Source of the DNA: Candidatus Aenigmatarchaeota archaeon
GTDB taxonomy: Archaea; Aenigmatarchaeota; Aenigmatarchaeia; GW2011-AR5
Direction of reading: 5' to 3'
NCBI GenBank assembly: GCA_016187335.1
Contig: JACPJW010000001.1
Coordinates: 254,547 to 318,546 of the forward strand
DNA: 64,000 nucleotides
In this document: positions 1,946-45,092 of the stretch, piece after piece
Layout: each line of letters starts with the position of its first letter
Position numbering within the stretch: position 1 is the stretch's first letter
Notes under the pieces: generated by a model
Told to the model about the DNA's origin: nothing
The model's database searches: none
Seen by the model: only the letters and a program-made list of their open reading frames with translations
Translations under genes and position numbers: made by a program

Positions 1946-2029
1946 ATTTTTCCGCCAGCGCTTTATCTCATAATATTTTTCTTTCCGTGCACGCTTTTTT
2001 TGATGAAACTTTTTTCTAAAAAGTTTCAA
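1944..2029 (-). repeat. Two abutting copies (C and E) of the hairpin repeat, between tRNA-Val and the Nudix gene
   Basis: On the minus strand copy C (2029-1972) reads hairpin GAAACTTTTT/AAAAAGTTTC, then ATCAAAAAAAGCG, TGCACGGAAAG and AAAAATATTATG. Copy E (1966-1944) repeats the tail, AAAGCGCTGGCGGAAAAATAT, and runs into the Nudix start codon. Copy C begins one base after the tRNA-Val discriminator and is homologous to the anticodon-loop intron of that tRNA. Confidence 0.7.
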
Positions 2030-2275
2030 TGGGTCGGGGCGGATTCGAACCGCCGGCTTATGCCTCTCATACCCTTGTGACAGTATTTTCCGCCAGCGCT
2101 TTTTTGATCAAACTTTTTCTAAAAGTTTGAAAGGGCTGTAAGGGCATCGTCATCTGTGGTTCGTAGTCTGCGAACCAAGATCTCAAAGACCTACGGTCTT
2201 TGCAGATAACCAATTTCTGAACTTTCTTTTGATAGAACTTTTCTTTCTAAGAAAAGTTCTCTAGACCACCGACCC
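2030..2275 (-). tRNA. tRNA-Val (anticodon TAC) with three introns
   Basis: The acceptor GGGTCGG (2275-2269) pairs with CCGACCC (2037-2031); discriminator A is at 2030; no CCA is encoded. Exon blocks TAGA, TTGGTTAT (2213-2206), GACGATGCCCTTACA (2151-2137) and AGGCATAAGCC plus T arm GGCGG-TTCGAAT-CCGCC join into a 75-nt cloverleaf with anticodon TAC at 2140-2138. Intron 1 (2214-2259, 46 nt) and intron 2 (2152-2205, 54 nt) lie in the D loop; intron 3 (2066-2136, 71 nt) is at 37/38. Introns 1 and 3 belong to the dispersed hairpin repeat; intron 2 is a stem ATCTG/CAGAT enclosing two hairpins. The tRNA starts 2 nt after the broken Nudix gene's stop. Splice points are approximate. Confidence 0.9.
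2082..2136 (-). repeat. Hairpin repeat copy D, forming tRNA-Val intron 3
   Basis: On the minus strand: GCCCTTT, hairpin CAAACTTTT/AAAAGTTTG, then ATCAAAAAAGCGCTGGCGG and AAAATACT. The repeat starts at the 5' splice site (2136). It shares its ACAGCCC entry and GCGCTGGCGGAAA end with tRNA-Ser intron 1. Confidence 0.72.
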
Positions 2276-2277
2276 AG

Positions 2278-2721
2278 TCATAAACGCATCGCTAATTTTA
2301 TTTCTTGCGCTTTTTCTATCCATAAAGGTATGCTACCAAACGAGAACTTTTTATTATAGGTATTATCCGAATCCGATGAAACCGGCAAAACCCATTCGAA
2401 TTTGACATTCTCGTCGCTCAATTTAATAGATGACATTTCGGTAGTAGCTAAATAAATGACACCTATCCTTATTTTCTTATCCCAAAATTTTGCGATATCG
2501 ACATAAACAGGATAAATTTCATCTGGAACTATTTTTGTTTCTTCTTCGACTTCACGTAAGATCGCCTGTTCAAGCGTTTCACCTAGATGTACTTTCCCGC
2601 CCGGCAGGTCCTAGGTGCCGGATTTATGGCCATACTTCTTACCTGCCTGAAGCAGCAGTACCTTGTCATTCCTGAATATCACGATTTTCTGAAACACGCC
2701 GTCTGGGATGAATTCAGCCAT
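2278..2721 (-). pseudogene. Nudix hydrolase broken by an in-frame TAG at a conserved Trp
   Basis: Reading through gives 147 residues with a good Nudix box (GGKVHLGETLEQAILREVEEE). Codon 37 is TAG (2611-2613), in SGT-stop-DLPGG, where relatives have Trp; TGG to TAG is a single transition. It is probably a nonsense mutation or base-call error. Readthrough is unlikely because other genes here end normally in TAG. The ATG is just after the preceding gene's stop, and the final TGA is 2 nt before tRNA-Val. The C-terminal half is more AT-rich than its neighbours, which hints at acquisition. Confidence 0.8.
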
Positions 2722-2723
2722 GC

Positions 2724-3284
2724 TTATTCCTCGTGAAGGTATTTGTCAAGCGGATGGTGCTCTTTTTCATAGTATTTCAGTGCTTCCTCTATAATCGAGA
2801 TGTCCTTGGCTTTGGCGCCGCTGGAGAAAAATTCAACAATGAAAGATGCCGCCTCGTCCGCGTCCGCGGCGACCTTGTCGCATGTTAGTTTGACAAAGGG
2901 ATGAATCCAGTCTCTGAATACCTTGCCCATGATTTTCTTTTCATGCCTGTTGAAGCGTCCTCCTTTAGGCGCTATGCCTATCAGAGGCTTCTTGAAATGC
3001 TTTGCTATAAGCATTTCCTGCGAGGCTCCGATGCCAATGTCGTCTGCAAGGTTTACAATTACTATGTCTGCGGATTTTATCATGAACGCATCCCTGCCCA
3101 CAACGAACCGCTCGTTATTGTCGTCAAAATAAGAACCGTCGTGGTATTTCGAAGGGTCTAGATTGATTATTTCGAAGCCCGTCTTCTCCGTGAGCTTTTT
3201 GCATAAGCTGTCACGCCAGTCATGCGCACCTTCTTCCGGCTCTGTTATGCTTCCTGCGACGTAAATCTTTATTTTTCTTGTCAT
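2724..3284 (-). CDS. Nucleoside 2-deoxyribosyltransferase-like protein
   Basis: The 186-residue protein opens with KIYVAGSI, the start of the nucleoside 2-deoxyribosyltransferase/Rossmann-like fold. RDAFMIKSADIVIVNL and GIGASQEMLIAKHFKKP follow, matching the Asp and Glu positions that bind and cleave the N-glycosidic bond in that superfamily. Likely substrates are (deoxy)nucleosides or nucleotides. ATG 3284 overlaps the stop of the upstream Nudix gene (ATGA), so the two are coupled. Together with MazG and the Nudix enzymes it points to nucleotide-pool cleaning. The exact substrate cannot be read from sequence. Confidence 0.78.
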   Translation of the reverse strand: MTRKIKIYVAGSITEPEEGAHDWRDSLCKKLTEKTGFEIINLDPSKYHDGSYFDDNNERFVVGRDAFMIKSADIVIVNLADDIGIGASQEMLIAKHFKKPLIGIAPKGGRFNRHEKKIMGKVFRDWIHPFVKLTCDKVAADADEAASFIVEFFSSGAKAKDISIIEEALKYYEKEHHPLDKYLHEE

Positions 3285-3739
3285 AATTCCCTTACCTCGT
3301 GTTTTAGCAGCTTTTTCGCGTCCTTGTCGAAATAAAAGCGCCCGTGGAATTTCCTGCCGCTGAGCATCAGCGGCATCCAGACGGCGTCGTCCGGCCACAT
3401 GTCCTTGTACGGCACTTTGCTTACTGGAAACCATTTGGGCGCGGCTTCCTTTGTTTCCTTTTCAATGCCGTCGTAGTCATCGGCAACAAAAACATGGACA
3501 TGCCAGTTTACGACATCATACTGCCCGAAGAAAAACTCCAGTTCGCCTGCTTTTCTGGGGTTGTCCGGGACTATGCCTGTTTCTTCCAAAACCTCGCGCG
3601 ACGCCGCTTCCGCTATATCCTCGTTCATCCCTACCTTGCCGCCGGGGCCGTTCCATTTGCCGGCGCCGAAGCCGCGCTTCTTCTGTATCAGCAGCACCTT
3701 GCCGGCCTTGATGACGTAGCATAACGTAGCAGTTGTCAT
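3281..3739 (-). CDS. MTH1-like Nudix hydrolase (8-oxo-dGTPase type)
   Basis: This 152-residue Nudix protein has a canonical box (GGKVGMNEDIAEAASREVLEE, then TG). It has the MTH1-style features GFGAGKWNGPGG before the box, the HVHVF strand, and MWPDDAVWMP near the C-terminus, where MTH1 places its base-recognition WPDD. It probably hydrolyses oxidised purine deoxynucleoside triphosphates to monophosphates. I start at ATG 3739 behind GGAGTGA; the frame extends to 3778 but would overlap mazG. It lies 4 nt after mazG and overlaps the next gene by 4 nt. Confidence 0.85.
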   Translation of the reverse strand: MTTATLCYVIKAGKVLLIQKKRGFGAGKWNGPGGKVGMNEDIAEAASREVLEETGIVPDNPRKAGELEFFFGQYDVVNWHVHVFVADDYDGIEKETKEAAPKWFPVSKVPYKDMWPDDAVWMPLMLSGRKFHGRFYFDKDAKKLLKHEVREL

Positions 3740-3743
3740 AGCA

Positions 3744-4070
3744 TCACTCCGGTCTTTTATGGAATCCTCCATCATCAAGCCTGCGATTCACTTTCTCGTA
3801 TTTTTCCAACAGGATTTTTTCCGGGTCAGCGCCCAGCTCGGAAAGCAGCAGAAAGCCGAAGGTTATCACGTCGGCTGCTTCTTCCGCAAGGTCTTTGAAA
3901 AACTCTTCCTTGCTTATGGGGTCCCCTCTCTTCAGCTTTTTGACATTGTTGAGCACCTCGCCCGCTTCCCCGCCCATTGCTATGGAGTAAAATTCCCAGT
4001 TGAACGCCTTGTTCTTGTCGTGCTTCCTGTCCCTTTCGTGAGCAATCCTTGCGAACTCGTTTATGTGCAT
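3744..4070 (-). CDS. MazG-like nucleotide pyrophosphohydrolase
   Basis: The 108-residue all-alpha protein carries the MazG metal-binding signature: GEAGEV, then about 26 residues later LAEEAADVITF. This family cleaves (d)NTPs to monophosphates and pyrophosphate. ATG 4070 follows the hydrolase stop directly (TGATATG) with a GGGAGTG sequence upstream. It sits in the same operon as a MTH1-like Nudix enzyme, which supports a role in removing aberrant nucleotides. Confidence 0.82.
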   Translation of the reverse strand: MHINEFARIAHERDRKHDKNKAFNWEFYSIAMGGEAGEVLNNVKKLKRGDPISKEEFFKDLAEEAADVITFGFLLLSELGADPEKILLEKYEKVNRRLDDGGFHKRPE

Positions 4071-4071
4071 A

Positions 4072-4920
4072 TCAGACCACACTCCCAAGCCATTTTAGCA
4101 CCGCTGCGCTTAATTCCTTTTCCCTGCCTTCAAAGCTGTGGTTGGCGCCTTTGATTATTTCCCATGCAAATTTTCCGGACCTGGTCTTGCCGGCAAGTAT
4201 TTCCATATAAGTTTTAACGGGCTTTACTGCGTACTCTTCCTTTGAGCCGAAGACGGCAAGCATCGGTATCTTGATTTTGGAAAATATTTTCAGGCCGGAG
4301 TCGTAATTGAACAGCTGTGCTTCCGTGTTTTCAGGGTCTGCAAAACTCAGGAACCGCTTGGGTGCGAAGCCCCAGAATTCTTTCAAAAGAACTTCTTTAC
4401 CAGTCATCTTTTTTGCCTTTTTTACAATCTTATCGAAACCCTTTCCTGCCTGCTTTCTTGCTATGTTGTAATCATCGGCAGGCGCAAGAAGAACCAGTGC
4501 CTTCACATTCTTGTCCTTGGTTTTGTATTGATAGAAAGTTATCTTCTGGCATCCCGTGCTGTGCCCCATTAAGATGATATTTTCATATCCAAGATCTTGC
4601 ACAGCCTTGACCGAGCCCTTTATGTCGTGTATGCAGTCTTCAAACCTTTCCTTTGCCGTGCCGAAATACAGGCTTTTTTTGCTGCCTTTTTTGTCAAAAC
4701 GAAAAACTACTCCCAGTCCCCGGTTACTGGGTAGAAAAAGGTCAAAATTATTTTTCTTTATTTCATTTACCATGTCTTCGGTTATTGACCATGCAAAGAA
4801 ACTGTCTGTCATCCCGAATACGTTTATGATTACATTCTTCGTTTTCCTGCCTGATTTGAACAGCAAACCCGACAATGCAAGACCGTCCGACGCGTAAAAC
4901 TTCACGAGTTCTGCTTTCAT
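4072..4920 (-). CDS. Alpha/beta hydrolase
   Basis: The 282-residue protein has the alpha/beta-hydrolase nucleophile elbow GHSTG, a following LLAPADDY strand, an AVFGSKEE segment where the acid usually sits, and the catalytic His in GANHSFEG near the C-terminus. It resembles DUF1749-like or lysophospholipase-like hydrolases; the substrate is unknown. I place the start at ATG 4920, three bases after the 3' end of tRNA-Ser. The frame runs up to 4956, but that segment is tRNA sequence, so the longer start is rejected. It is the first protein gene of the array. Confidence 0.8.
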   Translation of the reverse strand: MKAELVKFYASDGLALSGLLFKSGRKTKNVIINVFGMTDSFFAWSITEDMVNEIKKNNFDLFLPSNRGLGVVFRFDKKGSKKSLYFGTAKERFEDCIHDIKGSVKAVQDLGYENIILMGHSTGCQKITFYQYKTKDKNVKALVLLAPADDYNIARKQAGKGFDKIVKKAKKMTGKEVLLKEFWGFAPKRFLSFADPENTEAQLFNYDSGLKIFSKIKIPMLAVFGSKEEYAVKPVKTYMEILAGKTRSGKFAWEIIKGANHSFEGREKELSAAVLKWLGSVV

Positions 4921-4956
4921 GAGCGCTGGGAGAGGGAATTTCCCGACCCTTTCCAT

Positions 4957-5001
4957 AATATTTTCTTTTCCGTCGACGCTTTTCTTTCCAAAAGAAAAGG
5001 G
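4957..5001 (-). repeat. Hairpin repeat copy B, inside the tRNA-Ser T-loop intron
   Basis: On the minus strand: CCCTTTTC hairpin (CTTTTCTTT/AAAGAAAAG), then GCGTCGACGGAAAAGAAAATATT. Nearly identical to the free-standing copy at 44829-44875 outside the hairpin loop. Confidence 0.7.
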
Positions 5002-5046
5002 TCGCTTTGAACCCTCGCGGGCTTTCGCCCACAGGATGTTTACAAG

Positions 5047-5083
5047 CCTTTCCGCCAGCGCTTTTCACGTTAGCAAAAAGGGC
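5047..5083 (-). repeat. Hairpin repeat copy F, inside the tRNA-Ser anticodon intron
   Basis: On the minus strand: GCCCTTTTTGC, a short loop, then GAAAAGCGCTGGCGGAAAGG. It shares both ends (ACAGCCCTTT and AAGCGCTGGCGGAAA) with tRNA-Val intron 3, at the same 37/38 site of a different tRNA. Confidence 0.68.
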
Positions 5084-5145
5084 TGTAGCAATCCTGCGCC
5101 GTAACCAGGCTTGGCTATCCCAGCTTCTAACCTCATTTCCTTCTT

Positions 5146-5540: not shown

Positions 5541-5671
5541 GTTTTTTCTTTGACCTGATTTATCTATGCGTATCGCAGGTTACGTCCAGATCTGCGTAGG
5601 TTCCCCCCAGTCTGGGATTTTGCGCTAAAATCATGCTATCTTTTAATACGTTAACCAACAAAATATGCACG

Positions 5672-6199
5672 ATGACTAGTTTTCTTCTTTACGGCCGGGG
5701 CGGGCAGGGAGTTGAAACGGCTGTGCGGATTCTGGGCAATGCCCTGCATTCTTCTGGCATGAATGTCCAGGACTTCGTTCTTTCCGGCATGGAGAGGCGC
5801 GGCTTCCCTGTGGAAGGTTACGTGAAATCCGAGAAAGTCCCTATAATTTCAAAGGACGTCGCGAGCCCTGATTTTCTTCTTGTCTTTGATACCACGCTGC
5901 CTCTGGACAACATGCTGAAGCAGTGCAACGAAAAGGCTGCTGTAATTTTCAACTCAAAGGACCATGTAAAGAATCCGCTGCTGAGAAAGCTGCCGGTAAA
6001 AACCTATTTTGTGAATGCCAGCGAAATATCCTACAACTACATGAGGGCAATAATGCCCAACACCGCCATGCTGGGCGCGCTGGCGAAGATAAACCCGAAA
6101 ATAACCTCGAAGAGCCTGAAAAACGCGATGCAGCTGCCCATGCAGCAGGAGAACTTGAAAGCCTTTGACGAAGGCTACAGGAACCTGAAAAGGAACTAG
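5672..6199 (+). CDS. porG: 2-oxoacid:ferredoxin oxidoreductase, gamma subunit (PorG-like)
   Basis: The 175-residue protein starts with the gamma-subunit signature LLYGRGGQGVETAVRILG and continues with GMERRGFPVEGYVKSEK and a C-terminal NTAMLGALAKI, matching the CoA-interacting gamma domain of pyruvate/2-oxoacid:ferredoxin oxidoreductases. ATG 5672 is the start that aligns with the family; the frame runs back to 5633. It is followed by porD and porA on the same strand with a hairpin pair between. The substrate is uncertain because alpha and beta are divergent. Confidence 0.82.
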   Translation: MTSFLLYGRGGQGVETAVRILGNALHSSGMNVQDFVLSGMERRGFPVEGYVKSEKVPIISKDVASPDFLLVFDTTLPLDNMLKQCNEKAAVIFNSKDHVKNPLLRKLPVKTYFVNASEISYNYMRAIMPNTAMLGALAKINPKITSKSLKNAMQLPMQQENLKAFDEGYRNLKRN

Positions 6200-6200
6200 T

Positions 6201-6253
6201 GAACTTTTCAGAAAAGTTCAATCAAAACGGTAGAACTTCTCAGAGTTCTATCG
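6201..6253 (+). repeat. Tandem hairpins between porG and porD, related to tRNA-Val intron 1
   Basis: GAACTTTT-CAG-AAAAGTTC (6201-6219) is followed by AATCAAAA and a second stem CGGTAGAACT/AGTTCTATCG (6228-6253). The GAACTTTTC, GAAAAGTTC and ATCAAAA blocks match tRNA-Val intron 1 read on its own strand. It begins two bases after the porG stop and may also modulate expression between the cotranscribed subunits. Confidence 0.5.
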
Positions 6254-44828: not shown

Positions 44829-44875
44829 TAATATTTTCTTTTCCGTAGAGGCTTTTCTTTTCAAAAGAAAGGGCT
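44829..44875. repeat. Free-standing hairpin repeat copy A
   Basis: AATATTTTCTTTTCCGTAGA, then GGCTTTTCTTT and its complement, ending AAAGGGCT. It lies between two convergent genes, 39 kb from the tRNA copies, and its first 17 bases are identical to the corresponding part of copy B. Confidence 0.7.
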
Positions 44876-44876
44876 C

Positions 44877-45092
44877 TTAGAACATGAACCTCTTCTGCTT
44901 CTTCTTGGACATTTTTATGGTAAGCATATTCTTGTCAAGAAACGCGTCAAGCTTTTTGTGGTCTATTGTTTCCGGCAGCGTTATGCGCATTATTACCTCG
45001 TCGTTGTTCTCTTCCACGTCCACGGGCAGGTCAATAAAATGCCTGAAGTCCTTTTCCCAGTAGAATATATACTCGTTTTTTTTCCTTGGCAT
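44877..45092 (-). CDS. Short Hsp20-like protein
   Basis: A 71-residue protein with VDVEENNDEVIMRITLPETI and LDAFLDKNMLTIKM, which resemble the first and later strands of an alpha-crystallin domain. It is too short for a complete Hsp20. It may be a truncated or minimal member. It is preceded by an AT-rich leader and followed by repeat copy A. Confidence 0.55.
   Translation of the reverse strand: MPRKKNEYIFYWEKDFRHFIDLPVDVEENNDEVIMRITLPETIDHKKLDAFLDKNMLTIKMSKKKQKRFMF

Follow-up and report, generated by a model that had tools for sequence, protein, structure and literature searches.

Two families of dispersed hairpin repeats in tRNA introns of an aenigmatarchaeal genome

Interrupted tRNA genes of the window

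The DNA analyzed here is a 64,000-nt stretch (the window; G000:C2:254547-318546) from the genome of a Candidatus Aenigmatarchaeota archaeon (G000; 1.01 Mb, 91% complete). It contains the genes for tRNA-Val(UAC) and tRNA-Ser(GCU), both interrupted by introns in which short hairpin elements recur that are also found elsewhere in the genome (Table 1). An earlier note on the window had proposed that these introns are copies of a single dispersed repeat with a genomic repeat as the apparent donor. The dispersed repeat itself was confirmed, but at least two element families, designated A and B, are involved, and the intergenic copies may be donors or recipients. ARAGORN and Rfam gave zero tRNA calls in the window although both genes are present, because the elements break up the genes several times. 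At gathering score, Rfam found no match in the window, and in the other loci it recognized only the rRNA and signal recognition particle (SRP) RNA hosts. Genome-wide counts were obtained by pattern searches, with the reversed pattern as control, and from selected sequence stretches; orthologous regions were compared with those of G001, a congener of G000 (56% complete).

Table 1. Features of the two tRNA genes and of element copies in the window
Feature	Position	Strand	Basis or comparison
tRNA-Val(UAC), three introns	2030..2275	-	intronless counterpart in G024 (L307), orthologue in G001
Val D-loop intron 1: family B hairpin and second right arm AAAGTTC	2212..2260 (limits approximate by 1-2 bases)	-	sequence; absent in G001
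Val D-arm intron 2, holding hairpin TGCAAAGA..TCTTTGAGAT	2153..2206	-	similar intron in G014 Val
Val 37/38 intron: family A with family B in the loop, then second arm AAGGG and splice arm TATG	2066..2136	-	same intron in G001
Family A element of the Val 37/38 intron, first two bases exonic	2087..2138	-	pattern match G000:C2:256633
Family B hairpin nested in the loop of this family A element	2102..2129	-	pattern
Family B hairpin immediately downstream of tRNA-Val	1998..2027	-	pattern
Family A 3' half AAAGCGTGCACGGAAA, 3' of tRNA-Val	1982..1997	-	pattern
Family A 3' half AAAGCGCTGGCGGAAA, 3' of tRNA-Val	1949..1964	-	orthologous to complete family A element in G001
tRNA-Ser(GCU), two introns	4925..5124	-	exons match intronless G014 gene (L336) at 89%
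Ser 37/38 intron: family A and splice arm GTAA	5038..5085	-	family B intron in its place in G001
Ser T-loop intron: family A and second right arm GGGTCG	4939..5005 (limits approximate)	-	also family A in G001, with a different stem
Family B element directly after the stop of ORF 5633-6199	6200..6227	+	pattern
Stand-alone family A element directly after TAA of 71-aa ORF 44877-45092 (-)	44829..44876	-	comparison with G001 orthologue

The exons of tRNA-Val read GGGTCGG..GTCTAG / GGTTA / TGACGATGCCCTTACA / AGGCATAAGCC..CCGACCCA. An anticodon CAC was considered for this gene and rejected, as the stem ATGCC/GGCAT and the relatives give UAC. Removal of the introns yields a canonical tRNA in both cases, as judged by the intronless orthologues of tRNA-Ser (G014, 89%) and tRNA-Val (G024). 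Comparison with intronless relatives led to the same limits of the two 37/38 introns as had been assigned in the earlier note. The two introns share ACAGCCCTTT as well as AAGCGCTGGCGGAAA, which is present in exact form at 2087-2101 and 5049-5063; these blocks indicate that the introns contain separate copies of one element. The shared block that had been described as lying at the intron entry is correct in sequence, but in tRNA-Val part of it belongs to the exon (ACA of C36-A37). The introns also possess parts that are absent from the dispersed copies, namely an additional right arm and a segment able to pair with the anticodon loop.

Further hairpins had been interpreted as copies of the same unit. 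In the case of the stretch 3' of tRNA-Val (1944-2029), a repeat is present and consists of one family B hairpin and a tandem pair of family A 3' halves; G001 has a complete family A element where G000 has these remnants with B. The hairpins of the Ser T-loop intron and of Val D-loop intron 1 had been regarded as related, which holds true for the former as a family A element but not for the latter, which is the different dispersed hairpin B. The unit standing alone, previously placed at 44829-44875, proved to be a full family A copy, and the G001 orthologue of the adjoining 71-aa open reading frame (ORF) (82% identity) is also followed directly after its TAA by a family A element, with a different stem.

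The presence of the elements at the same splice site differs among relatives, even within one genus. The 37/38 site of tRNA-Ser(GCU) is intronless in G014, G021, G023, and G028, holds family A in G000, G017, and G026, family B in G001, and another hairpin in G012. G014 and G017 are two members of one genus, the former intronless at this site, whereas the latter holds family A. In G001, tRNA-Val is missing D-loop intron 1 and its 37/38 intron contains the same combination of A and B. As G014 has an intron free of the element at this same site, the family A element of tRNA-Val may have entered a pre-existing intron.

Form, copy number, and location of the two families

All copies of family A fit the formula nnn-CCCTTT-loop-AAAGCG-n'n'n'-N-CGGAAA. 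It describes a hairpin with three covarying base pairs, a variable loop that can contain a second hairpin, and an invariant C x C mismatch, in which the middle C is always opposite a C. The 12 fixed bases AAAGCGNNNNCGGAAA gave 44 exact matches in G000, compared to 0 for the reversed pattern and about 0.1 expected, so that the blocks shared by the introns are well above chance in the genome. In 37 copies from G000, the outer-stem positions 1, 2, and 3 pair in 97, 97, and 95%, respectively; controls with shuffled partners had means of 82, 47, and 45% and maxima of 92, 68, and 65%. Stem position 4 showed no pairing above the chance level. The relatives contributed 50 copies, in which positions 1 to 3 pair in 92, 92, and 82%, respectively. 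A fixed unpaired GTAG or CGTC tag is lacking; the stem foot is variable in its bases, which are paired with one another, and the 3' tail is CGGAAA. Tandem arrangements were also seen: L052 contains a tRNA D-loop intron with several tandem repeats of the family A 3' half GAATGCACGGAAAGAAAAA, and L128 a complete family A element in tandem repeat.

Family B follows the formula GnAACTTTT..AAAAGTTnC-ATCAAAA. The pattern AACTTTT..AAAAGTTnnATCAAAA matched exactly at 69 sites in G000 (control, 0), and the outer two pairs are maintained in 53-54 of 54 copies. This family fills introns other than those of A and also nests within family A. On the contigs C1 and C2 of G000 its copies are strand-biased, with 52 on the minus and 17 on the plus strand. 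For a third hairpin, TGCAAAGA..TCTTTGAGAT, only 4 exact matches were obtained in G000. A D-loop intron of tRNA-Ser from G012 (L343) carries several AAAAGAACAAC units in tandem.

Family A copy numbers ranged from 0 to 32 among 58 genomes of the same class (controls, 0-3), compared to 44 in G000. The predominant stem types differ between genomes, with CTGG in 16 of 26 copies in G017, CTTG in 10 of 18 in G008, and TGCA in 9 of 44 in G000 (chi-square p 3e-9, with counts entered by hand from the pattern-search output), which indicates amplification within lineages. In G017, one family A copy of 30 nt recurs without change in the thermosome leader and a tRNA T-loop. In genome contigs, the pattern CCCTTTN{2,32}AAAGCGNNNNCGGAAA was found in at least 118 stretches. 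Among the matches listed, these are largely archaeal, including Aenigmatarchaeota, Nanoarchaeota, Woesearchaeota, Altiarchaeota, Diapherotrites, and Micrarchaeota as well as Methanophagales, Methanocellales, Hadesarchaea, and Thermococcaceae. Stem pairing served as an independent test: among the same matches, archaeal ones mostly have at least 3 pairs and bacterial ones mostly 0-2, and the bacterial matches therefore look like chance. Viral contigs were considered as carriers and rejected, most of their 23 pattern matches being due to chance.

Inspection by eye and with tools located family A in D-loop, 37/38, and T-loop introns of many tRNAs and directly after tRNA 3' ends. Half of the G000 copies (22 of 44) lie within 250 nt of a same-strand T-arm motif, and no copy has such a motif on the opposite strand only. 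In the case of family B, 13 copies near tRNAs lie on the same strand and 4 on the opposite strand, the latter not demonstrably inside tRNAs. Copies of family A are also located inside the 16S (2-3 copies), 23S, and SRP RNA genes. Several hairpin inserts, family A among them, break up the 16S gene (L011, L076; G000:C2 ~239900-242600), and for the insert at ATTAGAT^ACCC a strict bulge-helix-bulge (BHB) motif can be drawn. The archaeal SRP RNA gene (L067:1442-1832) has its family A element near the 5' end. An RNase P RNA with a family A element (L009:1317-1590) scored 48.4 bits, which is below the gathering score (E 2.6e-12).

Gene ends and leaders are further locations. Among 87 family A copies from G000 and relatives, 16 start 0-3 nt past the stop of an ORF of at least 60 codons; about 1 was expected for these 4 bases, given that random positions strike a 13-base window at 4.4%. 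Some family A copies overlap or abut stop codons, and about a quarter of the family B copies start at -3 to +1 nt relative to stops. Two stop-codon copies of G000 are matched by orthologous copies in G001 that differ in loop or stem, suggesting that these copies are older than the G000/G001 split or selectively kept. In the thermosome leader, downstream of a TATA-like box and upstream of the ATG, G000 has B and an A 3' half and G017 has A in the same place.

Copies within protein-coding frames were observed as well. The frame of prolyl-tRNA synthetase (ProRS; L093, G000:C2:578093) is open through a full family A element (PFGKSVDGK), which could be either translated or spliced out; alignments to PDB entries end at or fray over the site and leave the insertion undelimited. 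In Methanophagales and a related archaeon, family A lies inside ORFs named TnpA-like by motif recognition only (L162, L207, L237, L265). L162, L207, and L237 retain an uninterrupted frame, even though the element itself is read in a different frame in L237; L265 was read from DNA only. A further family A element is located within a frame resembling ABCE1 (RNase L inhibitor) in an Aenigmatarchaeota genome (L212:3597).

Probable splicing of the introns and proposed spread of the elements

The G000 genome encodes one tRNA splicing endonuclease (PF01974; G000:C2:410532; E 3.8e-28). The earlier note had recommended mapping BHB motifs in the pre-tRNAs, with a mixed outcome. For G001 pre-tRNA-Ser, the minimum free energy (MFE) fold contains a strict BHB with the bulges UA^G and CC^A flanking UUGC/GCAA and the inner helix GAACUUUU/AAAAGUUC, but in G000 neither tRNA-Ser nor tRNA-Val has the BHB in its MFE fold. 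The inner helix consists of the left arm of the element and the second right arm, R', and the element's own right arm remains within the intron. The layout of the introns thus appears to be exon, element, R', and splice arm, the free copies having neither R' nor splice arm. The pre-tRNAs would be spliced as drawn in these models.

Taken together, the data are best explained by two families of short, dispersed, sense-oriented hairpins, probably mobile elements of the repetitive extragenic palindromic (REP) or palindromic type, that were amplified within lineages and that colonize BHB introns and help to form them. Mobility of the copies is strongly suggested by their presence or absence among relatives, by the replacement of one family by the other, and by the genome-specific stems. 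According to this model, the elements would persist where an additional RNA hairpin is tolerated, i.e., in BHB introns of tRNAs and rRNAs, within the SRP and RNase P RNAs and mRNA leaders, and immediately downstream of stop codons and tRNA 3' ends. In tRNAs, the left arm of the element would pair with the extra right arm to build the inner splicing helix, and the BHB would be completed by a short 3' arm that can base-pair with the anticodon loop. The host endonuclease could then cut out the element, so that its insertion would cost little. Elements may enter existing introns, as in the case of Val 37/38, or found new ones, as in the case of Val D-loop intron 1; both routes are possible. The hairpin repeat is likely a source of archaeal tRNA introns, and the mechanism of insertion would act on RNA or close to it. 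An extension of this model, in which a pan-archaeal element spreads via RNA, always in sense orientation, and is the direct source of new BHB introns in tRNAs and rRNAs, is possible but doubtful; with the same reserve, such an element might be the archaeal counterpart of a mobile intron, geneless and only about 30-60 nt long.

Several observations weigh against mobile hairpins that are spliced out. Mobility and splicing were both deduced from comparisons of DNA. Neither a Y1 transposase (PF01797) nor a reverse transcriptase (PF00078) was found in the 91% complete G000 genome. The strict BHB lies 3.8 kcal/mol above the MFE for tRNA-Ser of G000 and 4.4 kcal/mol for that of G017; the BHB of tRNA-Val is 9.1 kcal/mol off the MFE and has one U-U in the central helix (3/4 central pairs). 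The 16S copy can be drawn likewise (AT^A, UUAG/CUAA, AG^A, 9-bp inner helix), at 8.7 kcal/mol above the MFE. Both stop-codon copies compared have orthologous copies in G001, which also fits a retained function, and the G001 genome is only 56% complete.

Such a function is the core of an explanation that we regard as unlikely, in which A and B are functional RNA elements, acting in 3'-end formation, in mRNA stability, or as protein-binding hairpins, that are selected at gene ends, with the intron copies as by-products. The clustering of A starts, and similarly of B starts, at stop codons, the two copies kept at orthologous G001 stop codons despite stem or loop changes, and the sense orientation throughout are in agreement with this assumption. 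However, only a few tens of genes carry the element, copy number varies widely among relatives, the genome-specific stem types indicate amplification, and copies also occur in a 5' leader, tRNA introns, and ORFs, where a terminator would be harmful. A role solely as terminator was rejected because of the copies in the 5' leader and in tRNA introns. Movement at the RNA level, by reverse splicing or ligation of excised intron or element RNA into other RNAs and subsequent copying into DNA, would explain the sense polarity, i.e., the ratio of 22:0 at tRNAs for A and of 13 to 4 for B, and would be consistent with the location at RNA boundaries and the presence in every structured-RNA class examined. 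It is nevertheless quite unlikely, as no reverse transcriptase (PF00078) was detected in G000 or the near-complete relatives tested, and as the dispersed copies have neither the second right arm nor the splice arm expected of a spliced intron.

Single-strand transposition of a non-autonomous hairpin by an enzyme of the IS200/IS605 or REP-associated tyrosine transposase (RAYT) type, as for classical REPs, would fit the REP-like size, the conserved mismatch, and the contig strand bias of family B. We consider it improbable, since G000 has no Y1_Tnp, the variable stem foot carries neither tag, and G045, G032, and G024 are rich in copies yet also have no Y1_Tnp, so that copies and enzyme do not track each other. 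For G000, Y1 transposase and reverse transcriptase were both rejected as movers. By far the least credible explanation invokes gene conversion between tRNA introns, or the constraints of splicing, as the origin of the shared blocks and does without a dispersed element. Both introns do lie at 37/38 and must form the splice motif, but this explanation is refuted by copies far from any tRNA; moreover, a BHB needs neither CGGAAA nor the C x C mismatch, and the same element occurs in other archaeal phyla.

Comparison with known systems

The origin of archaeal tRNA introns is an old dispute. Similarity between tRNA introns is already known from Thermoproteales, where transposition was proposed and reviews describe similarity from intron to intron (Fujishima et al. 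2010, via PMC4033280 and PMC4090602) and call the mechanism unknown (PMC4090602). As in that system, we observed similar introns in unrelated tRNAs, at canonical and noncanonical positions and with several introns per gene, together with presence or absence among relatives. In contrast to it, the common sequence is a repeat not confined to introns; it is also present in rRNA, SRP, and RNase P genes, leaders, and gene ends, and in DPANN and some euryarchaeal lineages.

Bacterial REP sequences tagged with GTAG or CGTC are also already known (PMC3733652). Like these, the elements described here are short repeated hairpins with copy numbers in the tens, for the most part noncoding and in part within ORFs; unlike these, they have no fixed terminal tag, a compensating outer stem, no resident Y1 transposase, and copies in tRNA and rRNA introns, and they are archaeal. 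Rickettsia palindromic elements, also cited in PMC3733652, are palindromic repeats with insertions in RNA genes and in-frame insertions in protein genes. The open frames through A in the G000 ProRS gene and the Methanophagales TnpA-like ORFs can be compared with such insertion, but the Rickettsia elements are bacterial, unrelated in sequence, and not associated with BHB introns.

With most subscription journals outside their range, our literature searches revealed no description of a dispersed archaeal hairpin located in tRNA introns. In the case of tRNA gene disruption in Caldiarchaeum, intron gain was ascribed to a 1.8-kb mobile element coding for a recombinase (PMC3293823); gain through a mobile element is common to both models, but the hairpins described here are geneless and about 30-60 nt long. 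Known archaeal BHB introns of tRNA, rRNA, and Cbf5 pre-mRNA agree with the present ones in position, splice-motif arms, and an endonuclease gene in the genome, and differ in that the intron body is here a dispersed repeat, with A and B interchangeable at one site. With the same splice site holding one element, another in a congener, and none in others, the origin of introns becomes a testable process.

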